Under the pieces are notes generated by a model. The model ran no database searches, was not told the DNA's origin, and was given only the letters and a program-made list of their open reading frames with translations. DNA of 64,000 bases. Source: Nereocystis luetkeana (Eukaryota; Sar; Phaeophyceae; Laminariales; Laminariaceae). The position numbers and the translations under genes are program-made. Within the stretch, counting starts at the first letter, position 1; each line of letters starts with the position of its first letter. Shown here in pieces: positions 3,679 to 56,525 of the stretch. Where the stretch lies: assembly GCA_031213475.1 (NCBI GenBank), contig JARUPZ010000004.1:1413501-1477500 (forward strand), in the 5' to 3' direction.

Positions 3679-3787
3679 TATTACGGGGGACCATAGTTAA
3701 TAGGACCAAATATCGTTAGTAAAATTGTTTAAATATATAGGGTTTTATGTATACCATAGGTCCTATTAACTATGGTCCCCCGTAATA
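3679..3787 (+). mobile_element. MITE-B copy 2 (TA family, reference copy)
   Basis: Reference for 20 copies of a ~109-bp element. Ends are TA-TTACGGGGGACCATAGT and its complement, with inner AATAGGACC repeats, and the asymmetric centre contains AAATATnGTTAGTAAAA and ATAGGtTTTTATGTATAC. Insertions are flanked by TA on both sides, the target used by Tc1/mariner-type transposases (inference). The right end is continuous with the next copy, so the two form a dimer. Confidence 0.88.
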
Positions 3788-3890
3788 GTTAATAGGACCT
3801 ATGGTACACATGAAAACCTACCTACCTGGTACTTATTTAACTATTTTCACTCAAACTATTTGGTCCTATTAACAACGGTCCCCCGTAATA
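3788..3890 (-). mobile_element. MITE-B copy 3, fused to copy 2
   Basis: The left terminus is missing and shared with copy 2. An extra TACCTGGTA (3823-3831) replaces the plain TATA seen in sister copies between AAAACC and TTTAAC. Confidence 0.8.
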
Positions 3891-3945
3891 GTGTGGTCGT
3901 GCAAAAAAAGTGCTGGATGGTTCTTTTACTAGTAGTCTGGGTGCA

Positions 3946-4003
3946 GCGATTCGGTTATCCAATCAATGGCGTCGTCGGTAGGACATGGGTTTTGGGGATC
4001 GCC
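3946..4003 (+). mobile_element. SINE-2 head fragment
   Basis: GCGATTCGGTTA, then the family-diagnostic TGGCGTCGTCGGTAGGAC (3967-3984) and a decayed B box GGGTTTTGGGGATC. Outer bases 3935-3942 and 4005-4012 (GTCTGGGT/ACCCAGAC) can pair like an acceptor stem. No body is seen. Confidence 0.5.
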
Positions 4004-4164
4004 TACCCAGACTAACAACCCCTATCTATGACAGAGGACAGCACCATCCACACTCACGCCTAAAAATGTCCGAATAACGAAAACAAAGTTATTTTTTGTC
4101 CCCCTGTCGGGGCTTCGAGAACGACACCTGGTACGTACGTACGCACGTACGTACGCGTTTGTGG

Positions 4165-4281
4165 TATCACGGGGGGGCATAGGAAATAGGATCAAATAGT
4201 GTTAGTTATAGTAAAAATAGGGACATCTATATAGGTTTTTGTGTGTACCGTAGGTCCTATTTAATATGGCCACCCGTAATA
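4165..4281 (+). mobile_element. MITE-B copy 4
   Basis: Left end decayed to TATCACGGGGGGGCAT; right end intact (CCCGTAATA). An extra TTATAG separates GTTAG from TAAAAATAGG. Confidence 0.75.
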
Positions 4282-4321
4282 GTTTGGTGCCGTCCTCGTT
4301 TTTCAGTTTGTGCTCTCCTCG

Positions 4322-4737
4322 GCAGCTGCTACAAACAGACAAATCGGAAAAATGGGAACGAAGCCTAAAATGAGAACCAAGCCGTATCTCCAGAACCATG
4401 TGGTGTATCAGATAACCAAAATGATCCTGCGAAACCCCTTGGCCAGCCAGCCCTGTGAGAGGAGCTCGTCAGAACGGTCATGCTCCATCTCGTGCCTTCG
4501 GGTGGGCGCAAAAAGCGATATACGCTGGCTCTCTTGTGATTTCTCTAGATGCTGGCTACCGCGGCGATGCCGAGGACTTCCAGCCTGAGCGACAGCTCAT
4601 TCGAAGGCTCCTGTACAGCCCCACAGGACTGTCAACTTTTTTTCTTGGGAGTTGTACACAATTGGTTTGCTTTCTAAAAAAAAAACGTCCGTTCTCATTT
4701 TTTGTTTCGTTCCCATTTTTCAGATTTGTCTGCAGCA
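4322..4737. mobile_element. TIR element abutting an LTR
   Basis: About 45-bp inverted termini: ACAGACAAATCGGAAAAATG near 4334 and its complement ending at 4735, both continuing through a GGGAACGAA / TTCGTTCCC segment. The ~300-bp interior has open frames but no recognised protein. Its right end touches the first base of the left LTR at 4738. Confidence 0.6.
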
Positions 4738-5118
4738 CGTGAAGTCGGGGGGGACCGATATATAAGCTGGTAAGGGGCGCGGGGACGTCGGTGCTGAGTA
4801 GAGCACGCTGCTTGTAGTTCACGAACTTCTTCTTATTGTTGCTCCTCGTGTGGGTTGAGAGAAAGGGAGAGAACTCGAGTGAGCGGTAGTAGGGTTTTCG
4901 CCAAGAACACAGCTAGCTCAGCCCAGACGTTGACCAAAACCAACCTGATATGCAGATACGAGTATTCCCATACATACAGAAGATTCCTAAAGCGCTACGT
5001 ACGTGTAGCCATACAAGATTCGCATACGGGTATGCCCCCAAAAACACTACGCGCAGCCGTACAAGATTCACAAATGGGTATGTACGTTCCTATACGATAG
5101 ATACGCTACTCCATCACA
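4738..5118 (-). repeat. LTR, downstream (3') copy
   Basis: Same sequence as the LTR at 10085 with scattered substitutions and small indels: an extra ATAC after CCCATACAT, and a 3-bp TTC difference near 4830. Ends CATCACA; the other edge is decayed from TGTGACG to CGTGAAG. Confidence 0.9.
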
Positions 5119-5800
5119 TTAGCCCACCCTGAATAGTTGTAGATGCCTATCACACGACGAAAAAAGATGATGACCACATGTCATCCCAAAATCGGGAAGA
5201 GAGGTCGAAGATGCGGCTATTCAACACATGAATGAGGTGATAGATCTACCCCCCACCTTATTCAAGAAAAACCGGTAACCGACTATCTGGAAGGAGAAAA
5301 AGAAACAAAAACATTACACAGTAAACCAGATAAGGCGCACGGGCGCGAAGAAAAGCGACGGCCAAATACGTTAGCGGGAAGTACGCCACAAGGCTTGAAA
5401 GAGAAAACATAAAATACGACTGAGGTCTACTCTACAACGTGGGGACTCGAGGCTGACGAGAAGGTAGAGCCAAGGGACCAAGACGTGGGACCCGGGACGG
5501 CCAGCTGGTATAAACCGGAAGGTGACAGGGTCTTTCTTCCGGAAGGACATACGCTAAGAAATCTAGGGCATCATATACTACAAAGTAAGCAGCAAATGTA
5601 GGTCGTAGCAAGGCTAGTCGCGGCAAAACTGGTATGCCGATCAGTGGGGCCAAAAGAAACGCCTGGAAAACTCCAAATGAAGCAGTAAATATACAGCAAG
5701 TCTTATACGCAGAAAACGAACCAGGGAACAGAAAGCCCTCGTATATTCGATACGCAGGATAAGAAAAGGAGAAAGGGTAGGAAAATAGATCGGCAAAAAG
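5119..5800. other. Interior 3' region of the LTR element, non-coding
   Basis: Lies between the downstream LTR and the tandem-repeat block. A/G-rich with no credible frame on minus. A polypurine tract would be expected beside 5119; only a weak candidate (AGGGTGGGCTAA on minus) is present. Confidence 0.4.
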
Positions 5801-5816
5801 TCATGGTAGATTTACT

Positions 5817-6640
5817 GTAGCACCACGATTCGGCGTCCTTCACGAAGAGCAGACCGGTGGAAACGGTGGCAGAAAATTGACGAAATATCGCGAAAGCGTC
5901 CGTTTTACAATACCACGTTTTTTTAGTGGTATGTGTAGCAGAACGTAGGAAAAATCACCCAATCGCAAACAATCCCAAAGGGACGATATCACGACAGTTC
6001 GGCGGCCTTCGATTGGAAAGGCAAGCGGGACCGGCAGTGGAAAAGTAAATAACCGAAGACCCAGTGAAGAACCGAAGACCCAGTGAATAACCGAAGACCC
6101 AGTGAATAACCGAAGGTACAATACCGCGACAATTCGGTGACTGCCGGTGATAAAAAGCGAACGAAACCGGTAGCGGTAGAATGAAAACACCAGACCCGCA
6201 CACCCGAAAAGGCAATACCACGACAGTTCGGCTGCCTTCGCTAGAGAAAGCGAACGGAACCGGCAGTGGTAGATGGAAAACAGCAGACCCGAAAAGACAA
6301 CACCGCGACAGTTCGGCTGCATTCGCTAGAGAGAGCGAACGGAACCGGCAGTGGTAGATGGAAAGCAGCATACCGACACACCCGAAAATACGATACCACG
6401 ACAGTCCGGCTGTCTTCGCTAGAGAAAGCGAACGGAACCGGCAGTGGTAGATTGAAAACAGTAAACCAACACTCCCGAAAGTACAATACTATTTTGTGAA
6501 GGAATAACCCAATACCCTCAAGTAGACCGGAGAAACAGACCAGTACGTCCGAACGTACGATACCACGACAGCTCGGCGGCTTTTTCGAAAGAGGCGAGCG
6601 GAACTGGCGGTGGTCAGATAGAAGGAGCACATCAATACAC
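5817..6640. repeat. ~85-165-bp tandem repeats inside the LTR element
   Basis: At least seven units share CGACAGTTCGGCTGCCTTCG, GAGAAAGCGAACGGAACCGG and CAGTGGTAGATGGAAAACAG. Unit anchors lie near 5829, 5994, 6127, 6221, 6306, 6400 and 6566. Within the second unit a 19-bp subrepeat CCGAAGACCCAGTGAATAA is repeated about four times (6050-6112). Frames crossing the block give repetitive hydrophobic peptides and are not credible proteins. Confidence 0.85.
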
Positions 6641-6902
6641 ACCTTGAAGTAGAAGGGACGCAGAAACAAACACACACACGCGTAGTGCTAGACCTGAGTC
6701 AGCCGAAAACTAAACCTCAAAAGGGGGCGGCGTACTAGGGTGGCAAAACGAAGGAAAACGCACCCAAACGGTCCAAAGAAATACTCAAGGCTAAAGGAGG
6801 CTACTCATGGGAGCCAAGAGGGGCAGTCAGAGGCCCACTGGGCCCATCAGAACTTCGTAATACCCCGCGAGCAAGGCTCCCAGTCTTACGTCGTTGTAAA
6901 TA

Positions 6903-7124
6903 TCACGACCTGTAGATGGCGACGTTGGAGGCTGTGTAGTTCGCCGGCCGGAGGTTGATCTTGACCGGTCCAGGGTCGTCGAGGAACCGGATGATGTAGG
7001 TGTTGTCCGAAGGAGAGTCCGAGGGAACGCGATTGGCAATCTTGCCCAGCGGCCATAGGCCGTCGCGGGCCTTGCACCAACGGTGTGCTCCCGGTGGAAG
7101 TACGGTGGAGCTGAAGGAGCGTAG
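6903..7124 (-). pseudogene. Retroelement polyprotein tail, tudor/chromo-like segment
   Basis: After a stop, a 73-codon frame continues in a different phase from the integrase. It contains WCKARDGLWPLGKI, then YIIRFLDDPGPVKINL and ends at TGA 6905-6903. The pattern W-x-A-x-DG-x-W-x-x-G-x-I followed by a beta strand with 'FLDD' looks like a small SH3/tudor-type barrel, a fold class used by some Ty3 integrase tails to read chromatin (inference). Codon third positions are GC-rich, so it was probably translated. Both the frame change and the stop upstream are breaks. Confidence 0.5.
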
Positions 7125-7233: not shown

Positions 7234-8260
7234 TTAGCCTGGCGGTGTTGTGTTGGGGTGCCGGACCAGTAAAGGAGGATGTGGCGTCTGGAGTGTTGTA
7301 GGTCGAGTTCCCGCTCTCAGGAAGGGCTTAGCAGTCCGACCCTGTGTCTTTCTTGGCACCTTGGCGGATAGTGGCCGCGGAGCTGTAGACCCATTCCCAG
7401 CCGCCCACGGTGTACGGGGGTGAAGGGCGCGGGCCAGACGTGAAGCGGTGACCGCGTGGTGTTCGCGGACGAGGCGGTAGGCGCGCTGTTGGCGCTCGGT
7501 GGCGAGGTTGCAGTGGGCCAGGTGGTCTCGGTCCAGGCTTTGGTGGCCGCCAATGTTGGGGGAGTCCAAGACCGAAAGGATCAGACGCGGAAGCCGGCCA
7601 ATGTGGACTTCGTTAGGCGCCAGCCCAGTGGAGGCGTTGACCGAGTTGTTGTAGGCGGATTCGACGTGCGGAAGCAGCTCGTCCCAGTTGTCTTGTCGCT
7701 CGTTGCTGCCCATGGAGAGCATTTGGGCCATGGTGTGGTTGACGCGCTCGGCACCGCCATTGGTGCAGGAGTGGTACGAGCTGGTGTTGATCTTGTTGAT
7801 GCCAAGACGTTCGTAGATGGCGTTGGAGAGCTTCGAGGTGAAGTGCAGCCCGTTGTCGGAGATGAGGGTGACGGGGCACCCCCACAGAGGGATGTACTGG
7901 TCGATTAGGATATCGGCAGTGCCGACGGCGGTGATCTGGGCTGCTGCCACTGCGTACATGTCGGCGCGGCGGCTGAAGCGGTCGGTGAATAGGAGGATGT
8001 AGGAGTTGCTGCGTGGCGTAAGGGGCAGCGGGCCGAAGCAGTCGACGCTGACGGTGATACCGGGGCCATTGGGTAGGGGCAGGGAAAAGGTGGGCCAGCG
8101 GATGGTTTGGCGCGAGGTCTTACGCGCCTGGCACTTGAGACAGCGCCGAATCCACCAGCGGGCGGAGATGTCCATGCCGATCCACCAGAAAAGCGCGCGA
8201 GCATGCTGACCGTGCGGGAGACTCCCAAGTGGCAGGAAACGGTGGCGTGGCAGGTGTGCT
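7234..8260 (-). pseudogene. Ty3/gypsy integrase (IN), frameshifted
   Basis: Integrase inserts the element cDNA into the host genome. In order on minus: an HHCC zinc finger with H at 8249 and 8231, then CLKC at 8142-8131; and a catalytic core with VDCFGPL (D at 8043), SDNGLHFTS (D at 7857) and GGAERVNHT (E at 7749). The second D and E are 35 residues apart, the DD35E spacing of retroviral-type integrases. The finger's histidines and cysteines are in different frames: a 1-nt indel lies just before FWWIGM (about 8190). The core is open for over 300 codons. After about 7430 the frame drifts into proline-rich sequence, so the C-terminus is probably shifted again. Confidence 0.88.
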
Positions 8261-8289
8261 GCACACAAGGACGCATCAACATCGGAACG

Positions 8290-8650
8290 TAGATGCGCGG
8301 GGGTGGTGCGGTGGAGGATGTGCAGTTGGTTCCGGTGTGGTGAGGCTCAAGTGGTTGTCGAACCAGGAGAACGGTGTTGTCGTCGGTGTGGTGGAGTTGG
8401 CCTTTTCCTGCGAGGGCAAGCACGTCTGGAAGCGACGGGCGCCAGGACGGCTGGAATGGATCCAGGAGGTCGGGCGGCGGGGGGGGGGGGGGGCGGGGAG
8501 TGCAAGGAAAGGTAGTGTATGGTAGCCGCGCAGAGGATCTCGGCGCTTTGTTCGCACACCCAGTCCGTGTTCCTGAAGTGCTCCAGACGGGAGAGGAGGT
8601 GGGGGTCGTCGTCGGCAAACTCTGGCAGGAGAAGCGAGGGCGATACCTGA
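8290..8650 (-). pseudogene. Spacer upstream of integrase, decayed pol linker
   Basis: A minus frame entering the zinc finger can be followed up to about 8618. It is interrupted by a 15-nt G run (8470-8489 on plus) read as polyproline. NTDWVCEQSAEIL is readable in another frame near 8560, so several indels have occurred. No RT or RNase H motif (no YxDD, no DEDD pattern) is visible. Confidence 0.4.
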
Positions 8651-10466: not shown

Positions 10467-10980
10467 ACCTGATGGATGATTATCAACGGCCCCATATGCT
10501 AAGTTCAAGGTCGGGACACTTTGTATCTTCTCTTGTTAGGTTAGCCTATGGAGCAGGTAGGTATTCGTTGGTGCTCATGTGTGTTGAATGCGCTTAGAGA
10601 TGGGAGAAGAGCAGCTTTCTTCCTTCCGAGCACGATGAGAGACTGAGAGCTAAGCTCGTGCCTCGCTGGGGACACCCCTGGTTTTCTATCTAAGATATGC
10701 CTTTCAAGTACTACAAAACTCGATCTCAATACCTGAACCCGGGTAGTTCCCGGCGTTTCGGCCTCCTTCAAAGCAGTACCATAACACGTACCAGGTACAT
10801 GATTTGTCCCACAATCGTATTTCGCTGTAAACCTGCAGCATCATGTACATGTAGGGCGTGGGATTTGTTTTACTCTGCAGCAGCATCAATGACGGGATTG
10901 TTGCTGTGTCTATCGGATATATATATATATATTTTTTTTTTGAACGTCAGCTTTATGGGGGTGATGCCACAAGGCTTAGA
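10467..10980. other. Gene-free stretch
   Basis: Unique sequence with a (TA)n-T run at 10917-10941. No gene supported. Confidence 0.45.
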
Positions 10981-12420: not shown

Positions 12421-12584
12421 ATGCGCACTGGTAGGTGACAGAAGACTACTGCTGTACAAACTATAACAAGCAAAACACGACCGGTGTTGTTGTGGTTACA
12501 GTTGCTGTGAAGTCGTTGTACCAGGTATATCTTACCCAGCCCAGAGGAAACTTTGAAACACCCCCCCCCCCCCCCACACTATAT

Positions 12585-13935: not shown

Positions 13936-14440
13936 GAAAAAAACAGCACGTATGGAAATGGATTTATGTCTCTCATGCGGTACCGAATGAAGCCTTTTCA
14001 ACGACCTCATACCACTCCCTGATTTCCGGCTCCGGTAATTTGACCCCGCCCTGCCGGTAGCGTCGTTCCTACAATACCGTGAGCTTACCACTTACCAGGT
14101 ACCAGGTATTCGATAACGTCCTGTGATTGGCTAACGACAGTCTTTTCGGGACGTTTCATTGGTTCCCACACGCCCACACATAGTTAGCTGCATTCTGCTT
14201 CCACTCGGCACCCTGATCCCACGCCTACCACCGTAAAACACTATCACACGGGTGGTAAAATACCACACCCCCTGGAACGAGTTTCGGAACCGATTTTCTC
14301 CAAAGCATGCCTTAAGGGGGGCACACGCAACAAAAAAGGTGGCTTCTGAAATTTGTCGTCGACATGTTTTCCGTAGACGCGTGGGTCAGCTGTTTACACC
14401 TTCCCCACTATCGAAAAAACTTGACGACAAAATTGTCCGA
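13936..14440. other. Gene-free stretch
   Basis: Mixed unique sequence; ACTATCACACGGGTGGTA (14240) is one isolated unit of the satellite found at 58743-59230. Confidence 0.45.
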
Positions 14441-19338: not shown

Positions 19339-19439
19339 CGTGAAGGCGCCCAATCTCCAAGCGAGGTAGTACCTGGTATGTGGTTGGGGTGTCGGGAGGG
19401 GTGGAGCATGTAGCGTTACGTGCCTGAATACACCATGAG

Positions 19440-27642: not shown

Positions 27643-28139
27643 GCAAGTAAGAACTCATCACTATACTCTATCTAGCACTCTCGACCTATAGCTCTCATGT
27701 ACGATACTCTCGTGGCTCTACACATCTTATATATGTACCAGGTAGCTGCTGTTGCTGCTGCTGCCGCCGCCGTAGCCGCTGTAGCCGCTAGCCGCACAGC
27801 AGAGCAAGCACAGCAATATTATGATCATAGATCACATCGATCGCTTGATGATCGATTATGATTATTATTCTTGCCTTCCGACATTCACTGCTGTGTATAC
27901 TCGTATATAGTGTGAGCTTCAACGTTGATCACACCGAAAAACACCCCGAAAAAAGAAAACCACGGAAACGAAAGTATAGCCCTACACGAAGTCGATCGAT
28001 CGATCTCATCATCATTCCGTCAGACGACGCTCAATCTCAGGAATACAGAAACACTCACGAATCACCACGACTCCCATAACAATACTCGTAGTATAAATGA
28101 CGCTCGTACGTACAAATCAAATGGAAAAGTAAGAAGTTC

Positions 28140-29760: not shown

Positions 29761-30186
29761 ACTCATCATACAGCATACGCCACGTACATACGCCGTGCGT
29801 ACCGTTGCTGCTGTTGTGGTTCTTGAAACAACTATTAATATTGATATCGATATTAATACCAGGTATAATACAAAACGACTATACTATCCCCCCCCTCCCT
29901 ATTAATAAAACGACTACGAACACGACAAACGAGTGTTTTTTCTATACTGGTATTTTATGCACGTGTGCAACTCGTATTTGTTAGAGCTGTAGTTGGCTCA
30001 CTATAAATGATCGCCGACTAGCTATTTAGTTGACATTAGTTGGCTACGTACGTAATACGGTCAGTTTGCGTGCGGCAATATGCAGAGGTATAATACTGCT
30101 CCACCTTTTTGTGTGTATCTCGCTGGCGCGTTTGTGGCTCGGACTGTGTGTGTTTTGTGGTTTCTACACAGACTAAAATAAGCCAG

Positions 30187-30357: not shown

Positions 30358-30474
30358 GTTACGGGAGACCATAGTTAATAGGACCTACCAGGTATGGTAT
30401 ACATAAAAACTTACATAGATTTAACCATTTTTACTAACAATATTTGGTCCTATTAACTATGGTCCCCCGTAATA
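30358..30474 (-). mobile_element. MITE-B copy 11 with 7-bp insertion
   Basis: GGACCTA is followed by CCAGGTA (TACCAGGTA at 30386-30394) before TGGTATACA; sister copies read GGACCTATGGTATACA. Confidence 0.87.
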
Positions 30475-31396: not shown

Positions 31397-32735
31397 GTAC
31401 TCGTATTATAGGCATATTTATTCTAAAGACCACCGTCCGTCACAGCTGTGAACCCAGGTACCAGGTAAAATGGTAAAATACTGAACAGCCGTGTCTTTTT
31501 TTTTCCAACAAAAAAACAAAAAAATGTTTTTTTCGTATACAATTATAGTATTGCAATTCCCTACCTGTACTTGCGTACGTTCAACCTTACATGAGGATCC
31601 TCTCGGCTTCTACGAATATGGCGTTTAGGGTCTCCGAGCGGCGTGTTGCTCATTTTTCCCCTATTTTTTTAACGAGCGAAGGCTTCACCTACAGCCTACA
31701 GCACGACTCTGGCCGTATGTATGTGGAGTAAGGCCCGCTTGGTCTTCATATGATTCATTTAGACACGATCCTTACTGGTATGTTTTATGTTTCCCCTCTA
31801 AGTTGTAACTGCCACTATTAATAGTAATCCTACTACGAGTACATATCCTCCAGAACATCTGATAACTGAAGGTTAAGATCTGCAGACGACCTATCTACTA
31901 CTGCTGTAGGTCGTGATCTATCTGATCTGTACATACCACTATGGCCGTACATATAAGCACCGCTTGATCTTCAGATTGATGCAGAAACGGTCCTTATATC
32001 TCCGCCCAGTATGCAACTATTAATATCACTATTGATATTTTACCGTACTCTGCTGCAGTTTAAAGTATACCTGGTACCTGGTAGTATTATTAGTACGACG
32101 TACGTTTTACCTAAAGCAATAGCAGGAGGTACGTACGTATTGCACGAGTAAACTTAGTACCTGGTACTATTCCATTTTGCTCGTACGTACGCTCAGCAGA
32201 TTATTTGTTTTTGTTCGTTCACTGACGGCGTGTCATCGAGAGCTCACGAGTAGTCTAGAACCGCGCCGACGTTTTCGGAGACGAATCGCTTGGAAATTGC
32301 ATGTATGTACGTACGTAATGCGTATACGTATAGTTCGAAATATAGTTGGAAACTCTTTGCCGCACTATAATGCCATGATGTTGCGTATGATATCATACCA
32401 GCGGAGTCCTCTCAGACCTGCACAAATATTTCCTTTTGTACTCGTACTGGTACTATTTTAGTCAGTCTGAGCATTAAATACCGTATATAGAACACACACA
32501 CACACCCTGGGACGAATTTCAGACCCTGTTTCCTCCGAAACGCCGCAACACGGGGGGGGGGGGGCACACAACGAAAATGGTGGCTTTGGAAAGATTTCAT
32601 CGAGAAGGTTGCAAAAAGACGCATCGCTCGTCGTATTCAGTACGCCCTCGCCGCTGTCGAGAAACCCAGCTTCCAAAATCGTCCGAGGGGGTGTGTTGTC
32701 CTGAGTATGTCGCCAGAAACGTGGGTGCAGGCACC
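31397..32735. other. Gene-free stretch
   Basis: AT-rich with many TA-centred micro-motifs (TACCTGGTACCTGGTAG at 32069, CTACTGCTGTAGG at 31901, CTATTAATAG at 31815) and ACGTACGTAC runs. No gene supported. Confidence 0.45.
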
Positions 32736-32839: not shown

Positions 32840-33670
32840 ACTAACTCTACAAGAGTGCAAGTAACTTTCGTACGTGCGTACAAAAAAGTAGATCGTAGAT
32901 CGAACCCATCTCCTCATATACATACGATATTACTACAGCAGTAGTTGTTGTACAGGAAAACGGCTGATGATGCCCCTACTTTCCAACTTGCGACACCCCC
33001 GGGGATTCCAAGCCCACCGAATCCCGAAGGGGGGCCTTGTTATATCGCATTGTTAATATCGTATCATATCACACGTATTGCTTCCGAGCCGGTCTGCTTT
33101 TTCGAAGGATATCGAACTAGAATGGACCGAGTCCTCTACGATAGGTAGTGTTTTGCATTATATACTCGTGTACAAATAGTACGTGGAGGAATGGAGGATG
33201 GAGGGCCAAACGCAAAACGCGTTCGATATGATACGTCGATATTTCTTTCGTTATTCAATATTGCAATATATCGAAAATCCGATATTTCGAAAAACCCGAT
33301 AATGCGGTAAACCGACATTTGAGTGTTTCGAAACGATATCCGATACGTGCGTACGTACTGCGAACACAGACCGAACACTGAACTGTTTTCAGTTTGCTGT
33401 TTTCTCATCCTTTGAAATGGGCTCCGTTCAAGCATTTGGGATTCGTAAATGGCAAACCTATCAATGCAATGGTAAGCCTTAAAGTCGTGATAGTACCCAC
33501 TACTATGACAGTGGTCGTATTGTGAACATCAGTAGTAGATTATGGGCAGTTGATGTAAGAATAACGTCAGCAACGATAACGACACGTCAAGACGAAAATA
33601 GATACCAGGTATACCTAGGTTCAAGTGAGCTATTTACAGGTTCACTATTAATAGGCGAAGCCCAACTTGA
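32840..33670. other. Gene-free stretch
   Basis: Includes a GATATC/TTCGAA-rich patch (33225-33350) of short palindromes. No gene supported. Confidence 0.4.
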
Positions 33671-35310: not shown

Positions 35311-35662
35311 AAGGCAATGTGTTTGAAGTTTTTTCTCACTGTTTCATTCAGTGCCACGAGGAGAAGGAGATTCAAGTGGAAGATAATGCGTATTGCTGTT
35401 GTTGTATACAGAACCGAAGCGGCCAGTACGAACAGTTTTGATTGTTGATTCGGCGTACAAGCCGCCTAAAGTTTCCTGCTCGTGTGTTACCCCACTGCGC
35501 GGGCGTGTCACGGTCAGTAGTATAGGTTTGAAGATGCAAAAACAGTGGGATTATGTGCAGTAGTACGCACGTATGGGGCGATGGTCCACGGTCTCCCCCT
35601 GCGAAGGCTGCAGTACACACTTTCCGACCCTCTGCATATCGCATACCTGGTACCTGGTATAG

Positions 35663-35771: not shown

Positions 35772-36480
35772 GAGTGGCGACAATGAGACAAGGTTATGGC
35801 GACATGATGGTTGACTCTCTGATACTGACTTGCTGTACTGTACCTGGTACCCGGTATGCTGTATGTGTCGGGGAACAAGAAGGGATACTAGCACATGACG
35901 GGAAGGCAAGAACGGTTTACTGTGGACAGGAAACACGACACCTGACACACGCACACATCACTACACCGCCTTTGCTCGGTGCTCGAAAACCGAAGAACTC
36001 GTGAACGGAAAGAGAACAAACAAGCTGATTGAAAGAAGCTAGAGCGTGGTTGCTCGCAAAGAAGCGGCTACCCACACCGAGACCCCTGAACTCAGCAGGG
36101 GCCCGAGGCCAGCATCGCTGCACACCCGGTTAGATAGCTCGACCCGCAGAAAAAGACACGTCTATAGCAAAACCCAGCGACCTTGTCTGCGTCATAGTTG
36201 GTGACGTTCCCACGTCTTCATGCCAGTTACCGTACACGCGACGGTTCAACTAACAGCATGCAGGCCTACACAATCAGTACTGCAGTTTTTTTGCGAGAAT
36301 TGCATCAAGATCGCTCCCCGTGGGCAAGTTCCTTTTTGCCGAGAGGCAGCGGTAGAAACTTCGCCACAGGGATCAATCGCCCTTGCTGCACATCTGCTGG
36401 CTCATTGTGCGCAGCCGGTACCTTGTGACGATGTTGCCATACGTACCTACCCCGTGTGATTTTAGTTGGAATGTGCGATG
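35772..36480. other. Gene-free stretch
   Basis: Short competing frames only; no gene supported. Confidence 0.4.
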
Positions 36481-37375: not shown

Positions 37376-37769
37376 GTATACCGTTTTTTGGCGTTCGTAC
37401 TATTTTTCACTATCATACCTGGTAACCCTGACCCTAGATCATAGTCCGCATCCTATATATAATATACGAGTCCGTGCGCAGTCTCCTTTATTCCATACTG
37501 GTGTGCGATGTATGAAATCTGCTCAGTTAGGTATTACGGAGCTTGCCTCTCTCTTGTCGGATGTAGAATCAGCACACACACCTAACTTCCCGTATGTCGA
37601 ATTGTACAAGAACGGTTTAATGTGAACGAATCCACACACCGCTGCTGTATGCCCCCCTCTGGTATCGGTACCTGGTTCAAAGAAAACTTAAAAATAAACA
37701 GCCAGTAGTACTCACCGAGTGGTCGGGGGGAAATTTCGGGGAATATTCCGGGAAATTTACATCCACCAT

Positions 37770-38424: not shown

Positions 38425-39405
38425 CGCGAGCAGTCAGTAACCCGACCCCTAGCTTGTTTATCTCGAGTCGTTGTCAGGTATACTCCAATAATAATCTACC
38501 CCGTGGCCCCATGCGCTTGCACCCCACCACCCACGCGCACCAGACACCAGGCACCAGAGACCAGAGATATGTGGTTTTCTTGTGCTGTCGCACTTGAATT
38601 GGAGGTTGGATGTACCACGTCCACGTCATGGATTTGTGATAGTTGACAACCAACAACCAGCACACCGCCCTAGACCACACCGACATCCGGTATCCGACAT
38701 CACCCATCGTTTTTATATCCATGTTAGCCTGTGTACGTACGTATATATGTTCCATACGAACCGTGGGCCTTTAGATTATGACAAGCAGTGTCAATGCTCG
38801 TTTTCAAGTACCATCAACTACCGGGTATCAATATTCATATTCATATTAATAGTCGAGTTGTCAACCAACTACTGCTGTTTGTTGTATCTACCAGATACCA
38901 GGTATCTTATGATATCATACATGTCACTTATACCAGGTACAGGCTATTTATTCTTTTATACGTACGACCAACCATTTGATTACTGAAAATAAGTACTTCC
39001 CAACTTCCCCCCTTCCTCCCACTCCCACCTTCCTTCTCGAATTATTTGGACAAACTACGTACAAAGTATACAGGCAGCAGTACAACACCTTTGTGTTTAC
39101 AAGTATCAGGTACCAGTATATGACATCAACGATTCATATTATTAGCGTAATGTTGATATCTCTACAGCACAGAGCACTACAACCGCAAAAGTCATCTACC
39201 CATGCTACGACTACAACAGCAGTACGTACATTTTTTTTTCTTTGGTGATCCTGGAATAGCAACGACCACCATACATGTTTCTTTTCGTTTCGCTATTTCA
39301 TAGATTGCGTATGTCGTGCCTGTCGTATCTATTAATAGTATGATGACATGGCTTTGCATTGCCCACTGCAGTGCATACTGCACACGTGGCAACGTAGTAT
39401 CTCTG
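38425..39405. other. Gene-free stretch
   Basis: AT-rich, many ACCAGGTA and TATTAATA motifs; no gene supported. Confidence 0.4.
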
Positions 39406-39840
39406 TGGCGTAGCTTTGTGACCCCAGAACTTGTATCTTCTAGGATTGAAGAATCGGCACGGATGCTGGATGTCGACGGGTAGAAAGAACGGTTTAATGT
39501 GAAGAACACACACACACACATATCAGGTGTCGTCAGTTTTTGAGTCTTTCGTCGCCCCCTTTTTGGACCGCAGTCCCATTGTTGGGACAAACCATTCAAA
39601 TTATCAGTGGTTTGTCCCCGAAACGGGACTGCAATCCTCGATGGGTCATGATAACCCCCGAGTGAGGGGGCCTAGCAGCAAGTACGACTATCAATATTAA
39701 TACTTATCTCTGTGGCGTAGCTTTGTGACCACATAACTTGTACCTGGTATCTCTTCTAGGATTGAAGAATCGGCACGGACACTGGTTGTGCTGGATGTCG
39801 ACGGGTAGAAAGAACGGTTAAATGTGAAGAACAAACACAC
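39400..39840 (+). repeat. Direct duplication differing by a TACCTGGTA insertion
   Basis: 39402-39515 and 39702-39835 share ATCTCTGTGGCGTAGCTTTG, TCTAGGATTGAAGAATCGGC and GATGTCGACGGGTAGAAAG. Copy 1 has CTTGTATCTTC; copy 2 has CTTGTACCTGGTATCTC (39739-39752) and an extra GGTTGTGCT. Confidence 0.85.
39551..39652 (-). mobile_element. MITE-A copy 9
   Basis: CCCCCTTTTTGGACCGCAG ... TGCAATCCTCGATGGGT; both termini decayed. Confidence 0.75.
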
Positions 39841-40800: not shown

Positions 40801-41300
40801 CCAAACATGCCGGCCACTACATGAGCTAGACGACCAGGGTCCCGTGTTTTGTGTTTTGGCGGTCGGTCACAGCTGGCGATGGAGTGAGATCATTTGGTCG
40901 GGGCGGAGAACCTTCGCTCCGCACAAGGGGAATAGTCGTATCACGTGCCTGTAGTGTTCAGGGTAAGGCGCCCACGAGGCGGTTACACGGTAATGCCGTT
41001 GCTGTCTCGGGAAGTGGCCTCACCGGAAAATAAATTCACTCATTGAAGCTATTATGTATACATATGCAAAACCATCTCGCAAGCGGTTCTCACTGGAGTT
41101 GGATGCAGCTCATCCTTCATGCGACTCGCCGAACACCTCACGGCGCTTGCTTCGCGCTTGGTGGAAGCAATGCCTGCCTGGTCGGTGAAAACCCGACATG
41201 CTCGGTCCCGGCATTGTAGGGAGGGATGCCAGGGTCTATTATGGTCATACCTGGTATATAGGACTACGGCCATGCATGACGATGATGAAGACACCCCCTT
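40795..41300 (+). mobile_element. Retroposon F copy 3 with micro-insertions
   Basis: Matches copy 1 throughout. Relative to copies 1 and 2, GGTCTATGGTC has become GGTCTATTATGGTC, and TACCTGGTA (41248-41256) is inserted before GGACTACGGCC. Confidence 0.65.
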
Positions 41301-43800: not shown

Positions 43801-45910
43801 GGGTGCTCGAATCTCAGTGTCCCATTGCGACCACGGCAATGTCCCAAACACGAACGAACCGACGGACCATCGTTTTTTTCGCCATGCTCATCCTATATAG
43901 GACTTCTTAGACCTATGCCAATGGATATCTCACTCTCGAGCGTGCTCGGTTGGTACATCCCTGGCCTCTCAGAGCTCCCACTTGGGAACCGCCTCCTTTT
44001 GTTGCTTGCCGGACCTTTCCAGCGGTTCTTTTGTTTTCTCCATTTCTCTTGGCACTTTCAGTATTTTTTTTCCTTTTTCTCTTCTCTCGTTTCGTGTGCG
44101 TGCGTGTACTCGGAGCACGGTGCCGCGGGCGAGCCCGGCGCCGTCGCGGGTGTCAGCCGGTGCCGGCGGGTAGAGGAGGGGTTGCATGGAGCGCGGTTGC
44201 CGTTTTCGTGCCTAGGCGTTGCGTGTGCCTCGAGACACGAGGGAAACATGAATGGGCTCTGTCTGGCCTCCATTTGTGGTTTTTGATAGATCATGTACGA
44301 TATTATAAGGTTCGTTCGGGATTGCAAGATAACATTCAAGCGGTGCTTATGTTTGCGACCACGCTAAAGTTGAAAGAGGGAGGTACGCATTCTGAGAACC
44401 AACACCGTCGAGTTGGCGGACGACGGCCACGGTGAGCACCGGGTTTCACGTGGGGCGGGCGACGGGGCTGACTGTGACAGAGAGTGAGGAAAGCTTTACC
44501 CGGTCCGAGTCGGTGGCGAGGTAGTCGCGAAAAGGGCGGGCGGCGGACGAGGCGGAGAGAGAAACTCACCTATTGGATTTTTATTATTTTTTTGACCAGT
44601 GCAAGATGTTCCAATCAGGTCAGAAAGTTATTACATGAGAGGGGACGGGGATTTTTTTTTCATTCCGACCTTTCGGTTTCTCTTTCCTTTTATTGTTTTT
44701 TCGGTGCTGCTGCTGTCCCGTGCTGTGCTTTCTCTTTCGTACATAGAGCAGTTACTCAAAATAAGAAAATAAGTAGCCTACGTACCTGCTGGGGTATGTA
44801 CGTGGTATGTACGTACGTACGGCATGTGAGCGAACCGCCCGCGACGCGGAGCGTATGTGCCTTCCGACCTGTTTTCTCCTGAAGCATGGCGGCGGGACTC
44901 TTAGTATTATCAAGTCGCCAGTTTGCAGCTACAATCATGAAAATGCTATATTTAATCATGGACCTCTGTCCGCTTCGCATAATTTGATGTGCTTTTCCTT
45001 CCTGAGCGAGCGTAGCGGGCGGCGTAGGCCGCCCGCGGAGCGAAACGCCTTGCATATAATGGGAATGGATCGTGTTGTGTGAATATGTCGTGTTTGATTT
45101 TTCGGTTTCCCACCAACGCACGAAGATGACGACAGTCACAAATATACACGAGCGAGAGCGACAAACGGTGAACCAGTGCCTGGGTGGGAACGAGGAACAC
45201 GGTCTGAAGAAGAGAGGTGCCATTTCATTTTTATTTTTTCCATCTTGATAATACCGCTACTGCTCTACGGGCTACTTTCTGCTGCTGCTGCTAATTGTAA
45301 CTGTGCCACACCGTAAGCTTTGCACGTTGTGGCAGCCGTACCTCAAAGTCTTCTTTCTGTGACAGCTGCGAAAGGTGCATCTCTTGAGTATGCGTGTACA
45401 CGTGTACGTGCGTATCTATCCCGAACACGCGGTGGACGACTACAACCCACACGCCCTCTGAATTTCGAAAGCGCCCGCGCAGTACAGCAGCAGTAGCGGT
45501 AGCAACCTGGTACAGAGGACGCGGTGCAACACTAGCGAACCTCACATAGGCTCACATAACAGGAACGCCTGTTCCCCTTTTTCAAGTTGCGATACGCCCG
45601 GGAGGGAGTTCAAGTCAACCACATCTCGAAGGGACACCATGTACGACGGTACCACAGCATACCTGGTACATACGTTGCAATCGAAAAAATCAGCGTGGTT
45701 CGTGCGCTGATCGTTTTTCTCGTTGGCCTGCGCCAATCAAGGGTTGTGTATGGTGTATATGGTTATCCATGTCGAATATGCAACCACCTCATAATTAATC
45801 GTGGGTCTATTTCGGTCGGGTTTAATGAACTCGCTGAACAACATGACACAGACGTTTGGTGTAATTATCATGCCCCCCCCCCCGCCCCGCCCCCCCCTCC
45901 CTGCCGCTGT
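43800..45910. other. Unassigned stretch upstream of the bZIP-like exon
   Basis: GC-rich segments around 44110-44180 and 44400-44560 have open frames on both strands. Pyrimidine tracts with CAG (44050-44061) could be splice acceptors. Upstream exons of the 45917 gene may lie here, but none can be shown. Confidence 0.35.
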
Positions 45911-46171: not shown

Positions 46172-47935
46172 GTGGGTGGGTGTGTGGAGTGGATGTGTTC
46201 CGTTCTCATGACCGTAGTATCGGTTTGCTCATTCGCAAGGCTGTGCCAAGCGCTGTTATTAATTGTAGTATTGTTTGACCTTTTTTTTTGCGCTGACATT
46301 TCGTGGACAAAAACTAAAAGCGCTGTATATACGTGTACTGGTGTTGAACACGTGGAATCAGAGGTGGGTGACATTTGCAGGTGATGGAGCTGCAAAGTAG
46401 GGTACTTATTAACAGTTGGTGCTGTTGATGGACCTGCAGGCCTGCAGTACATACAGCTATATAGTATTAATGGCCCATTGTGCGGGTTACGGCAGCACAC
46501 TCGCACATTTCATTTCCATTTCTGCTGTGTCAGGTAGAACACCTTGATATATTCTGGACACGTAAGTAGTAGTCCTGGTACATGTGTATGCACGGTACGA
46601 GTATTCATATTCCATGCCTGGTACCACTCTGTCCCATAATATAAGAACCGGTGTTACACTATTTGTTAAATAAAAAATTCTTCTATTTCGGGACATAGCG
46701 GTATCTGATATGCCAAGGTACACGGGTGTTGCCTGTTGGTGATAAACAACGACCAAGTGATACTGCCTGTTGTGCTGACTGGTATCTGGTGTCTAATATA
46801 CAATATTTTGTCTACTTTAGGCCTCCAAGTATAAAGGTGCTCGTAGATGCCCCTAAAGTATTATGTATTTATTTTTCTGCCCCGGAGAGCGAGAGGAAAC
46901 CCCTGTCCACACTTATTTCTCAAGTTTTCGTGTACCGGTTCGAACCCGGTTCGTTTCTTCCACCTTGGTCGGGCCTGCCTGGCCCTAAAGTCTACACGAA
47001 TTAGACTGCTACCAGGTATCGTCTATTTGATTGACTCACGAGTACCTTAGATGAAGCACATATTACGCACATACCTTGTATCTGATGTCATACATTCTGC
47101 TGTGCGGGGGAGTCGTGCTTGTGTATGAATAAGTGCCTTCGAAGCCGAGCGATGCAAAGTGCCTACTGCCGGTGCTGGTTGACACCCCAATGGGCCTTCG
47201 ACCTGTCTGGCCTGCTTTGAGTTGCTGCTTGCATTTCAGAGCGGATAGGTAGCGGCCCCATGCCTACTACTGTTGAGCCTGGTCTAGCACTAGCAGTACG
47301 CCAGATGTACAACACTGCTGCTCTACTGCTTATTCTGTCACCACCTGTCACGAGTCGCCCGTCACCGTTTTCCCTCGTACGCGTCTCGAAAGTTTGCGCG
47401 TCCTGCTTATTCGAAATTACCGAATTATTGCAGCCCCCCATCGTGCTTGGTATGATTTATCGTATGTCGTCGCATTATGTTGCGGTCGAATATATACATA
47501 TATATATAATCTATATATTGTATTATTATATATGTATGCGTTCGGCTTCCGCTTGTTTCACATCCATCTCTCGACCACACCACTCACTGACTAGCTTAGC
47601 GGCAGGCATCAGCCCGTCGCAGCTGCTGCCCTTCTGAGCTTGAAAGGGCTGTGTATCAATGTTTCATGTCTTCTCGCGCTCAAAGGACGCGGCATCGCAA
47701 CATCACTACCAGTACGTAATGTTCTGTGGATTATGGTATCAAAATACGTTTTCATACATGGGAGTACATTCATACCAACTACCGGAACCAAGTACTGGTG
47801 TACACCAGACACCAGGAAAAAAACTTGCCTCGTTCAGATCGGCGGCGGCGGGCGGTATGATACGTGTGTAGGCTGTCACTTCACGCCGGCTGTATACCAG
47901 GTGCCCGATACCGTCTGATACCATTCACCAACTAC
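46172..47935. other. Probable intron or intergenic stretch after the bZIP-like exon
   Basis: Scanned for the missing bZIP half (A-x-E-S-R-x-R-K). Only GTG-ATGGAGCTGCAAAG (46382), preceded by TTTGCAG, gives a zipper-like 'MELQSRV'. Too short to call. TA-rich at 47490-47535. Confidence 0.35.
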
Positions 47936-51163: not shown

Positions 51164-51775
51164 CACGAAATCATCGGAAAGGCCTTGGGACGGTTTATCG
51201 GGGTGGGCCTTCATTTTTGTCACAATCAGCGTTTGGACGAGAGGCAGTGAGGGTCCTAAAAACAAAATGGTGCGCCTTTCTCTGCTGGAGCGTGTGTCCG
51301 AGCTTACAGTAGGTACAGGTATACAACGAAGATAACATGTACCTGGTAAAACACAAGTGCTGTTCCGGCGAAAAGGCGTGTACCATGCCCTGTTTTGGGT
51401 AGAGTTTCCTCGTTCAGGTAGACCATCAATGGAATGGTCGTGTTTGGCTTTTGGCGAAAAAAAAGCCAACCCGTACCAGTGGAAACCCCTATCGCAGCAC
51501 ACGCAGTCGAAAGGGACGAATGAACCTTCTCGGGACTTAGGAGGGGGGGAACTTGACGATAGAAGAAAAAAAGTGACGGGAGTACGGCAACGAACACTGC
51601 GAGATTCGGGGGATGATATTCTTCAACATGGTGTCCGAGTCACAATGGTTGCCGCACCATGGTTATGCCATGGTTGACAACACCGGTACTGCTGGGCGCT
51701 CTGACACTGCTCATACAATTTTGGCAACGCTAAAGTTAGACCTACCTAAGCCAATGGAAATGTGACGACAAGAAG

Positions 51776-52079: not shown

Positions 52080-52089
52080 GGTCTAGGGG

Positions 52090-52640: not shown

Positions 52641-52650
52641 GCTATGTGGG

Positions 52651-52750: not shown

Positions 52751-52754
52751 ATGC

Positions 52755-53385: not shown

Positions 53386-53388
53386 GGT

Positions 53389-53512
53389 GTTACAGGGGGG
53401 ACCCTGTCTAGTAATCAGGACCAAATTTGCTTCGTTAAAGTACTGGAATATATAGGTTTTTGTCTGTGTGACGGGGTTCTGGTTGCTATTAATATCAATA
53501 TGGTCCCCCCTA
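53389..53512 (+). mobile_element. MITE-B copy 17 (strongly diverged)
   Basis: GTTACAGGGGGGACC, AATATATAGGTTTTTGTCTG and ATATGGTCCCCCCTAT. CTATTAATA (53488) sits where sisters have CTATTAA; TACCTGGTA adjoins the right end. Confidence 0.65.
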
Positions 53513-54032
53513 TACCTGGTAGTTTTTGTTTGCCCCCTCACCCGCCACGTCTCGGTTTTTGGAATCGTTTTATTGCTTCCGATGTGTGACGTGCGTATTC
53601 TACATACGCACGTGTTTCTGCTTCTGGACGAGGTTCACTCCTGTTGTTTCCACAAGTATGTGCTTGTTTTTTTGTCGAATGTTGCGCTTCTTCCTTCGCA
53701 TCAATCGCAAAACGTGTGCATGCAGCATCAGAATATATGTATACATGTGTGTCTGGTATAGATTGCCTTGTATCTGATACCTGGGACTTGGTGAGGTATA
53801 CATATTTGCTACAATGTCCCGAGATGTAAGGACCGCTCTTGTTTCAATATGCAATACAAACGGTCACTATATTTGAGGACATACATAGTGGCATTGTACA
53901 TCGTACCGTATACCTGGTACCTGGTACCGGTCGTATTTATTACCAGTACGTATTAATAGTGACGTTGCACGTGGCACTTTCGGTGTTTTTTTTTTTTTTT
54001 GTTGCTGTTGTCTAAATGTTGCTGTCTAAACC

Positions 54033-54141
54033 TATTACAGGGTACCATAGTAAATAGGATCTACGGTACACACAAAACCCTGTATATTTCGCTATTTTTA
54101 CCAACAATATTTGGTCCTATTTACTATGCCTCCCCGTAATA
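54033..54141 (-). mobile_element. MITE-B copy 18
   Basis: TATTACAGGGTACC left end, CTCCCCGTAATA right end. Confidence 0.87.
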
Positions 54142-54204
54142 GCAGCACCACAGTGAGACACGTGTATGTGTGTGTGTTTTTTATCATCACTTTTACTTTT
54201 CATC

Positions 54205-54299
54205 TTGACCTTTTAGGACCGCAGTCCCGTTTCGGGAACAAACTGCTTGAAATTTGACTGGTTTGTCCCCACAACGGGACTGTAGTTCCAAAGGGTTAA
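54205..54299 (+). mobile_element. MITE-A copy 12
   Basis: TTGACCTTTTAGG left; CAAAGGGTTAA right. Confidence 0.86.
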
Positions 54300-54486
54300 C
54301 TCGCAGGAGGTTTTACCCACTGCTCGTCGATTTTCATCGGATGTTCCTGACTCACGCCCTCGCGCTTTCCGCTTGTCAATTTTCATGCAAGACTCCTCAC
54401 GAGTATGCACTCGGTGATACTCGAACCCACGAAATTGATCTTAGTAGCCACGCGGACCACCTACCGAGCCACCGGGGATGCCGGCT
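54300..54486 (-). mobile_element. SINE-3 copy c
   Basis: Head on minus with CCGGTGGCTCGGTAGGTGG and B box GGTTCGAGTATC (54429-54418). Body CATGAAAATTGACAAGCGG. Its body edge touches MITE-A copy 12. Confidence 0.65.
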
Positions 54487-54773
54487 GTGTGTTTTCTTGG
54501 CATGGAACATGTTCTTTCTAGTACTGTATGTACGTATGTACCCGTCGACATCCAACATACCCAGTGTCCGTGCAGATAAGTTATCCTGGCGAGGCAATAC
54601 GAGGCTCTGAGGTCACACACTACTACCGGACTAGAGATAACGTATCACGCACCAAAGGCAATATCCCAGAAGAATCATACAGGAACTAGTGCAGAAGCAA
54701 GAGGCGAACATTTATCCATGTACAAAATTGTGTTGTTATACACGTGTATTTCGTACACATTCGAGTATACACC

Positions 54774-54900
54774 TATTACGGGGGACCATACCGTGGTACC
54801 AGGTATTAAATATTAAGTAGGACCTACCGTGCAGGCAAAAAACTACCGGTATAAATTTTTGCTATTTTTACCAACGATGTTTGGTCCTGTTTACTATGAT
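54774..54900 (-). mobile_element. MITE-B copy 19, right end lost, several insertions
   Basis: TACCAGGTATTAAATATTAA (54797-54816) is inserted after GGACCATA, and CTACCGGTATAAATTT (54842-54857) replaces CTATATATTT. The right terminus stops at TTTACTATGATACTGCTGTG. Confidence 0.8.
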
Positions 54901-55016
54901 ACTGCTGTGCTGCTGTCATTATACTTCGTACATACCAGATGCGAACGTTGACGTTGGGTATTCTTTTCTATGACACCAGGTGCAAGACGCTGGTTGAATG
55001 TTTTCTGCGCGGGCAG

Positions 55017-55113
55017 TATAAACTTTTAGCACTGGAGTCCCGTTGTGTGGACAATCCAGTCAAAGTCTAAGTAGTTTGTCCCCAAAACGGGGCTGCGGTC
55101 CTAAAAGGGTTAA
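55017..55113 (-). mobile_element. MITE-A copy 13
   Basis: Left end decayed (TATAAACTTTTAGCACTGG); right AAAAGGGTTAA intact. Confidence 0.83.
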
Positions 55114-55119
55114 AACAAC

Positions 55120-55722
55120 AATAACGACGACGACAACAACAACCACCCCCTCCCGTACACTTTAACGGTGTGCCTGGTATAGCGTATCGAGAACACCTTG
55201 TGATCTTTGAATGGCTCGAAAATACTCGAATCACATTATACAAACCGGCAGATCACACAGCCGCTCTGAAGCCATCCGGGCGAGAAAATGAATAATGGCC
55301 TCGGCAACATGCGTGCACATGCACACGCATTCATTCATACATATATACATGCATGCATGCATGCGTTCATTCATACATGCATGCTGCATGCTATCTCCTT
55401 TTTTTCAGTTCTTACTTTTTAGGTACAGCCGCAGCACGATCACATTTAGTTTCCAGGTCACCAGCCTTTTGGAGGTTTCAACGCTCAAATCTACCAGCTA
55501 CAGTATGTAGGGCCGTGAACAAGGGGCGTGCCTTGGCTGGCTAAAAGTCGCCGACTATGAATACCTGGTATTAATAGCTGTTACCGCAAAGAAGGTCGAG
55601 TTCGCACCGCAGGGATGTGATCGTTTTTTCCGCGCTTCGATTTTTTTTTTTTTTTTCCAAGAATGAGAAGGTTGCGGTTCCCAAGAACTTCCCCGAACAA
55701 GCGAGGCGTTTTCGGAAAATAT

Positions 55723-55757
<35 letters not shown>

Positions 55758-56324
55758 TTCCGAAAAATGTCATGTTCGACGGCTGTAGCCCCTTTTACCT
55801 CCGTCGAGGGAAAACGATCAGCGCTAAAAAAACGATCGCACTCCAGCTGTGTGAAGGAGTCAGTGCTATTTGCGGTGGTTGGATGGTGAAAGTGAGCCAA
55901 CTACCTGAACTAAAGCCAACTACCTGCACTTACACTTGATTTTTGTTCACTACCTGGGACCTGGTACAAGAAACGGCAACGTCGAGCCTCAAAGCGCGTC
56001 GAGTCGGATGCAAAGACGGAGAGCTCCGCCAACTACCGCACGCAACCTAACTGCTGTACAGCAGTAGTCCCTGTTATTAGCCAACTACCGTAAGCAATGC
56101 CAACTAAATGACCGGCCGGCGACTTGGTAGTCAACCAAGGCACAGCCCTGGTCACAGTAGTAATCATTGTCGACAGGCCCGCCCTTGCCGCACAAACCGT
56201 TATCACATGTGCCTTCCCTTCTCCCTCCCCGGTAGGTACTCGCCATCATCTCTGTCGCGTATACATTTTCACGCGTTCCCTGAAATTCTGCAGCTTCAGA
56301 TTTGAATTCCCTCAGCAAGGGATG

Positions 56325-56355
<31 letters not shown>

Positions 56356-56400
56356 CTGCATGAGGTCTTTTAAAACACCCATTACGCGCGATCGACCCAT
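55120..56400. other. Gene-free stretch with microsatellites
   Basis: (CATG)-type 55290-55390, (GA)n 55723-55755, GCCAACTACC repeats 55898-56107, (TA)n 56330-56355. No gene supported. Confidence 0.5.
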
Positions 56401-56403
56401 GAC

Positions 56404-56525
56404 TATTACGGGGGACCATAGTAAATAGGACCAAATATTGGTATTAATAGTAAAAATGGTTAAATACATACCAGGTAGGTTTTTATGTGAACCATAGGTC
56501 CAACTAACTATCTTCCCCCGTAATA
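56404..56525 (+). mobile_element. MITE-B copy 20 with two micro-insertions
   Basis: TATTAATA (56442-56449) and TACCAGGTA (56469-56477) stand where sister copies have TA; otherwise complete. Confidence 0.88.

Follow-up and report, generated by a model that had tools for sequence, protein, structure and literature searches.

Insertions of TACC(A/T)GGTA at TA dinucleotides

In the kelp Nereocystis luetkeana, members of several repeat families carry the palindrome TACC(A/T)GGTA where their sisters show a plain TA, which raises the question of what process writes this one sequence into TA dinucleotides. In the 64-kb window, i.e. the whole stretch of DNA analysed here, the motif has 38 overlapping matches, 22 with T and 16 with A at the centre, and each of the remaining 26 words that differ from TACCAGGTA by one letter occurs 0-5 times when the two strands are added up. 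Besides the copies considered individually below, these pattern matches, to which no strand is assigned, comprise TACCAGGTA at 10789..10797, 12519..12527, 27736..27744, 29857..29865, 31459..31467, 33603..33611, 38896..38904, 38931..38939, 47010..47018, 57975..57983, and 59506..59514, and TACCTGGTA at 3462..3470, 19370..19378, 32158..32166, 37416..37424, 45660..45668, 51340..51348, 53513..53521, 55562..55570, 58244..58252, 58497..58505, 61324..61332, and 63908..63916.

Over the 465-Mb genome, the motif was counted 182,395 times, against 1,744 occurrences of the reversed control ATGGWCCAT. In a 282-kb sample, the de-cluttered count of TACCWGGTA is 90 for 1.9 expected under a first-order Markov model. 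The sample loci L001-L008 had been chosen for holding the motif (without L005 and L006, and with about 1.2 kb common to L007 and L008), whereas the genome-wide counts are independent of this choice. At 103 sites, the central base is A in 53 and T in 50.

In an ungapped comparison with sister repeats over 322 kb, 117 TACCWGGTA sites were tried and 11 had an informative sister, which showed plain TA in 11 of 11 cases and was filled in none, compared to plain TA at only 11 of 188 informative sites among the other TA-N5-TA (Fisher p=2e-12). Six of the 11 informative sites have close sisters, the other five being looser, with a core identity near the 80% threshold. An ancestral consensus already containing the motif is contradicted by its absence from the sister repeats, and an insertion no commoner than other 7-mers by the pentamers at all-empty TA-N5-TA sites, among which CCWGG alone recurs. 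TAC(A/T)GTA is present as a second class.

All six TACCWGGTA positions singled out by the initial annotation are correct, and at three of them a 7-bp insertion relative to the sisters is clean: the MITE-B copies with TACCAGGTA at 30386..30394 (17 sisters empty, 0 filled) and 56469..56477 (13 empty, 0 filled), and TACCTGGTA at 39741..39749, whose sister in L007 reads ACATAACTTGTATCTCTTCTAG (3 empty, 0 filled). The remaining three, namely TACCTGGTA within a MITE-B copy at 3823..3831, TACCTGGTA within a repeat at 41248..41256, and TACCAGGTA of a MITE-B copy at 54797..54805, right after TACCGTGGTA (54789), failed the ungapped test; they are compatible with an insertion without being clean, the sister alignments at 3823 and 41248 containing additional gaps. 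The variant TACCGGTA is present as well, at 54844 rather than at 54842. The initial observation of TACC(A/T)GGTA at TA dinucleotides is confirmed.

A resident mariner-like element with matching ends

The genome contains a mariner-like element of about 2 kb with a TA duplication and ends 5'-CCAGTC(C/T)GAC, and TACC(A/T)GGTA is very probably the excision footprint of this DNA transposon, a reading built on sequence comparison to which a probability of about 0.88 is given. The initial annotation had postulated an element of Tc1/mariner type that targets TA and bears CCA...TGG ends; a resident element with a TA duplication and CCAG...CTGG ends supports this, and the element is not unseen, as had been supposed, since the candidate resides in the genome. 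In a listing of 52 places matching the end pattern, 32 have CCAGTC directly after TA, the canonical form, and 20 are non-canonical. Genome-wide, end-like 11-mers number 509, against about 196 expected by the control. Set beside the 182,395 intact footprints, this figure agrees with the earlier proposal that the element almost always excises, in the sense of a ratio only.

A catalytic-motif pattern matches 22 places, with QQDNAP(A/S)H in 18; the reversed control gives 45, and only the mutual likeness of the matches therefore carries weight. In this respect, the loci fetched around such matches are all related to each other (7/7). A point against this element as the source is that no canonical end was read in these loci, L033-L039: AGTC is preceded by CCAGG, CTGGT, CCC, CCTGG, CCA, C, and others, one end is without TA, and in L037 no end was recognised. 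At C3:5833388-5835407, facing canonical ends lie 2,020 bp apart with a QQDNAPAH match between them, and catalytic matches on C1, C6, and C10 have a canonical end 0.83-0.9 kb off. In addition, the end at C3:16834081 directly follows a double footprint, TACCTGGTACCAGGTA and then CCAGTC (the first T is missing in the printed 35-mer). The terminal inverted repeats of L034 measure 30 bp and are 100% identical (756-785 and 2721-2750).

A stop-to-stop frame of 489 residues bears a DDE/D triad predicted by motif reading, with D234 (VDEKWF), D355 (QQDNAPAH), and D395 (NILDLG); the D2-D3 spacing is 39 residues, a pattern labelled DD39D. Domain matches of this putative transposase are HTH_Tnp_Tc3_2 (E=2.3e-07, 31.4 bits for a cut-off of 31.5), DUF7769 (23 bits, below the cut-off of 27), and a weak PDB match to Mos1 (E=0.039) limited to residues 158-253.

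Other candidate sources were tried and rejected. MITE-B has a TA duplication, but its ends are TTACGGGGGACC. Sequences starting with TACCAGG in the sample share no common downstream sequence and show no transposase motif. Finally, TACCWGGAGTCYGA (TACCWGGAGTC), considered as a canonical end, occurs at 10 places, of which the three fetched hold no element.

Target preference and the proposed excision

The preference around the target TA is symmetric over 172 half-sites of 86 single footprints (86 of the 103 sites, tandem or near-edge sites being dropped), with deviations at +1 (p=2e-7), +6 (p=8e-12), and +7 (p=2e-12). Among 28 distinct canonical ends of the element, +1 is Y in 22 (p=0.035), +6 is T in 15 (p=0.0014), and +7 is A/T in 26 (p=4e-6), a target preference similar to the one seen around the footprints.

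A staggered excision with 3' overhangs may be read off the footprint itself. The element inserts at a TA, which is duplicated, with Y favoured at +1, T at +6, and A/T at +7 on both sides. Upon excision, the 5'-end strand would be cut 4 nt within the element, leaving a 3' overhang CCAG on each flank; these overhangs would anneal as CAG:CAG around a central A·A mismatch, the one-base gaps would be filled, and resolution of the mismatch either way would convert TA into TACCAGGTA or TACCTGGTA, with 7 bp gained per hop. The earlier proposal, with 2-3 nt left per end and an A/A mismatch, fits as regards overhangs joined through a mismatch, but 4 nt (CCAG) would account best for the product. A 5-nt overhang ceased to be the preferred model when the ends were read as CCAGTC. 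A minor product, TACCAGTA/TACTGGTA, is seen 34 times for 8.5 expected; the predicted blunt product TACCAGCTGGTA was seen 0 times for about 0 expected.

The footprints could instead stem from another, unsampled TA-targeting element with CCAGG/CCTGG ends and 5-nt overhangs, the CCAGTC element being a bystander. A CCAGG overhang would pair completely save at the centre, and L033 and L039 do have CCWGG directly before AGTC. Nevertheless, TACCWGG lacks a common downstream sequence in the sample, its extra copies without TA mostly show CA and TG, both transitions of TA, and the similar target preference speaks against a bystander, which makes such an unsampled source unlikely.

Tandem motifs and decay

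Four tandem double footprints are present in the window as pattern matches without strand, at 14093..14108 (TACCAGGTACCAGGTA), 32068..32083 and 53911..53926 (both TACCTGGTACCTGGTA), and 35644..35659, adjoining a MITE-B copy. Behind TACCTGGTA at 35841..35849 stands what looks like a decayed second copy, TACCCGGTA. Genome-wide, 15,917 doubles were counted for about 1,290 expected. Next to its TA, a footprint provides C at +1, T at +6, and A at +7, i.e. a preferred target; since it recreates such a target and doubles are in excess, footprints seem to attract footprints, and re-insertion at footprints would let tandem copies accumulate in a self-seeding manner. In a tally made by hand on the first places of the doubles listing, 40 of 59 doubles have the same W in both units, above independence (p=0.009), and slippage may consequently account for part of the doubles.

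The tandem 7-bp doubles and their same-W excess would also suit a microinsertion or slippage process without any transposon, e.g. templated filler of 7 bp added where TA-rich DNA has broken. Such a process, however, predicts neither a single fixed sequence at dispersed single sites, nor a free choice of A or T, nor a symmetric preference 6-7 bp away, and is very unlikely as the general origin of the motif.

One-mismatch neighbours of the motif comprise 61 transitions for 15.8 expected and 56 transversions for 32.1 expected, a transition bias like that of decaying fossils. Their excess over perfect sites, roughly estimated by hand with a simple model at about 0.7-0.8, hints at a long-lasting production with a total well above 182,395. 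Highly iterated palindromes such as HIP1 of cyanobacteria are known, CCWGG is a Dcm-type site, and here too one palindrome is strongly enriched, but a functional palindrome or modification site kept by selection is hardly credible, being largely refuted by the empty sisters, with an origin by 7-bp insertion at TA instead of substitution, a transition-biased decay, and a target-like flank preference.

Significance of the probable footprints

Mariner footprints are already known, the new aspects being the scale, the form of the footprint, and the proposed self-seeding. Excision footprints are usually studied singly, in assays or at individual loci, whereas some 10^5 footprints kept with an unmistakable sequence would permit bulk measurement of target preference, repair outcome, and hop age. 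They also indicate that resident copy counts can badly understate the past activity of a cut-and-paste element, and that 7-bp insertions, which shift the reading frame, can come in large numbers from a single element. It may even be, although the odds are put somewhat below even, that the element makes its own landing sites and, at no more than a few hundred copies, has given rise to several hundred thousand heritable 7-bp insertions as a main source of small insertions in this genome. The footprints would then be a dated record of hops, and their attraction of re-insertion a simple feedback of which no description was found in the literature searched.

Comparison with known systems

Minos, a Tc1-like element, leaves a 4-nt footprint between TAs, a point of likeness; its ends differ.

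Sleeping Beauty and Frog Prince, which are Tc1-like, share with the kelp element the targeting of TA as well as a footprint that is a palindrome centred on A/T, C(A/T)GTA (PMC3878927, Table 1), and Sleeping Beauty produces 3-nt 3' overhangs (PMC7827188); its footprint is also given as TAG(T/A)CTA (PMC2874221), at odds with the other sources. The kelp footprint CC(A/T)GGTA is, however, two bases longer, so that 4-nt overhangs annealing over 3 would fit best, and the ends are CCAGTC rather than CAG. TAC(A/T)GTA, the Sleeping Beauty form, is not the main one here, which is TACC(A/T)GGTA.

As to plant mariner-like elements, transposase homologues with DUF7769 exist in plants at 36-40% identity, and the 39 residues from D2 to D3 and the TA duplication are common features. 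Osmar5/Osmar14-type elements and Stowaway leave footprints of 1-4 bp of terminal repeat (PMC1925063, PMC4561436), whereas a single footprint form predominates here. The ends CCAGTC(C/T)GAC differ from CTCCCTC, the rice mariner-like/Stowaway consensus (PMC4423477, Table 1), which is a grass consensus rather than a strict definition.

Among brown algae, Ectocarpus possesses 17 Mariner-Tc1 families with 11,912 copies (PMC12477816), and homologous proteins reach 56%; the word "footprint" is absent from the main text of that report.

Other features of the window

Among the titles listed by a literature search for TACC(A/T)GGTA, none deals with it; viral contigs gave no related loci, and Rfam and tRNA scans gave no match. 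The window has 238 frames of at least 85 residues; a Pfam comparison covering 97 of them gave the integrase of a Ty3/gypsy-like element and otherwise weak matches.

Insertion of the motif at TA dinucleotides

The initial annotation proposed that TACC(A/T)GGTA (TACCWGGTA) reflects 7 bp added at TA, as the excision footprint of a Tc1/mariner-like element. In a 322-kb sample made up of the window, 240 kb of other stretches of the genome and six usable TACCWGGTA loci, the sequence of each site with and without the 7 bp was compared with every other copy. An informative sister was available for 11 of the 117 TACCWGGTA instances (close for six, looser for five), and all 11 sisters have plain TA, none carrying the motif. 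By contrast, the 1,180 instances of other TA-N5-TA words gave 188 informative cases, of which 175 were filled, 11 empty and two mixed (Fisher p=2e-12 for the difference in empty sisters), the 11 empty sites representing 11 different pentamers. Such comparisons indicate that TACCWGGTA is an insertion and not ancestral sequence, in agreement with the initial proposal. In one of the additional stretches (L013), CCATGTGGTGTA[CCTGGTA]TCAGATAACCAA differs from a 96.5% identical sister by the absence of the bracketed bases from the latter; likewise, at window position 39741, in ACATAACTTGTA[CCTGGTA]TCTCTTCTAGGA, the bracketed 7 bp are absent from the sister.

The motif, already described as scattered through gene-free DNA, occurs 38 times in the window (C4:1413501-1477500), where the remaining one-mismatch words of TACCAGGTA number 0-5 each, and 182,395 times in the assembly of 465,085,209 bp, against 1,744 for the reversed control. 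Neither a report of TACC(A/T)GGTA nor a genome-wide footprint record of comparable size was found in the open-licence literature, judged mostly by title, and the word footprint is absent from the main text of an Ectocarpus transposon survey (PMC12477816). Other Tc1/mariner elements are already known to leave footprints of this shape: Sleeping Beauty and Frog Prince leave C(A/T)GTA (PMC3878927), and those of Stowaway and Osmar5 consist of terminal fragments of 1-4 bp (PMC1925063).

Target preference and decay

The footprint centre is A in 53 cases and T in 50. When 86 single footprints were read outward from TA on both sides, the 172 half-sites displayed preferences at +1 (Y, p=2e-7), +6 (T, p=8e-12) and +7 (A/T, p=2e-12), the signal fading by +10; in this the footprint sites behave as a transposon target does. 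One-mismatch neighbours comprise 61 transitions vs 15.8 expected and 56 transversions vs 32.1 expected, while 9 of 11 same-letter control palindromes fall under expectation, the two others reaching 1.04x and 2.9x (CTAC, in simple repeats). We read the footprints as decaying fossils of mixed age.

Probable source element and its ends

The pattern for the second catalytic motif of Tc1/mariner transposases matched 22 places in the genome, vs 45 in the reversed control, and QQDNAP(A/S)H was found in 18 of the 22. The seven loci fetched around matches of this type (L033-L039) all contain copies of one element, roughly 2.0 kb long, that are related to each other. One of them, L034, has perfect inverted ends of 30 bp, and since it shares 99.8% identity with L033 across 1,746 bp, this family has moved recently. 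The L033 frame comprises 489 residues from stop to stop, with its first methionine at 55, and contains D234, D355 and D395, the last two spaced by 39 residues; in Pfam, HTH_Tnp_Tc3_2 scored slightly under the cut-off and DUF7769 was under it too. Among the best 120 of 190 homologues considered, those from brown algae include Laminaria digitata (86%), Ascophyllum (74%), Pylaiella (58%), Ectocarpus (56%), Undaria (50%) and Choristocarpus (45%), and those from land plants lie at 36-40%. Both these transposase matches and those of the Ty3/gypsy integrase in the window identify the host as a brown alga.

In the seven fetched copies, the outer bases between TA and AGTC vary, and the commonest form, CCAGTC, is present in none; our guess is that copies with non-canonical ends stay because they are no longer able to leave. 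The end pattern AGTC(C/T)GACNNNAAATATA was listed at 52 places, vs 2 for the control, and 32 of these 52 ends read TA|CCAGTC, which makes 5'-CCAGTC(C/T)GAC, preceded by TA, the usual end. Genome-wide, TACCAGTCYGA occurs 509 times vs 196 for the reversed control. Among the first 100 places listed, one pair of ends in facing orientation, at C3:5833388 and at C3:5835397-5835407, encloses the QQDNAPAH match; the 2,020-bp stretch C3:5833388-5835407 is an element bearing the usual end on both sides, of the TA-flanked CCA...TGG type initially anticipated. In the 28 distinct TA|CCAGTC ends, +6 is T in 15 (p=0.0014) and +7 is A/T in 26 (p=4e-6), a target preference that agrees with that of the footprints.

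Among the matches listed, further facing pairs lie 564, 577 and 674 bp apart, and two more, at C4:12015954-12016036 and C7:4396312-4396394, are both separated by exactly 83 bp. All these pairs look like short non-autonomous forms, and the 83-bp ones may be miniature versions of the source element.

Proposed excision mechanism

Upon excision, CCAG would remain as a 3' overhang on each flank, with the cut position deduced from sequence. The CAG parts of the two overhangs would then pair, leaving an A·A mismatch in the middle; after one base had been filled per strand, mismatch repair would yield TACCAGGTA or TACCTGGTA. An A/A mismatch between ends of 2-3 nt had been suggested at the outset: the mismatch fits the footprint, whereas an overhang of three, with its one-base overlap, would fit less well than four, as would an overhang of five (CCAGT, three mismatches). 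TACCAGTA/TACTGGTA, a simple alternative product, likewise exceeds expectation (34 vs 8.5).

Tandem double footprints and possible self-seeding

Read outward from one TA, TACCWGGTA itself offers the preferred target letters (+1 C, +6 T, +7 A), so that footprints may seed further footprints. There are 15,917 tandem doubles, vs 2 in the control and about 1,290 expected if footprints landed randomly on TAs. W is the same in 40 of the first 59 doubles listed (same-W excess, p=0.009) and mixed in 19, which argues that many doubles arose independently; slippage may add some. By hand count, these 19 mixed doubles, on contig C1, are A-then-T in 14 cases and T-then-A in five. At C3:16834081, a resident element end sits immediately after a double footprint.

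Second footprint class and other repeats

Sisters are empty at 5 of 19 informative TAC(A/T)GTA sites, namely window 11277 and 43220 and, in additional stretches, L008 2913, L012 8634 and L028 7430; the 14 filled sites belong mostly to one tandem array near 63.2 kb, and the count is about 3.6x expectation. TAC(A/T)GTA forms a second footprint class, which seems to stem from another Tc1-like family. In the 322-kb sample, TACGAGTA/TACTCGTA reaches about 6.5x expectation, but sisters are empty at only 1 of 6 informative sites.

MITE-B, with several copies across window 3679-56525 and common in the sampled stretches, is an inverted-repeat element of about 110 bp between TAs, TA|TTACGGGGGACC...GGTCCCCCGTAA|TA. 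Another repeat family, about 106 nt long, has several copies in window 2475-62225 and ends near TTAACCC...GGGTTAA; it is possibly a TTAA-targeting MITE. A big near-perfect palindrome occupies window 1242-1753, with arms of 254 nt, 89% complementary, and a 4-nt gap. Finally, the integrase frame of a Ty3/gypsy-like element lies at window 7237-8346 on the minus strand; its closest database match is 84% identical, and its Ectocarpus matches show about 60-70% identity.
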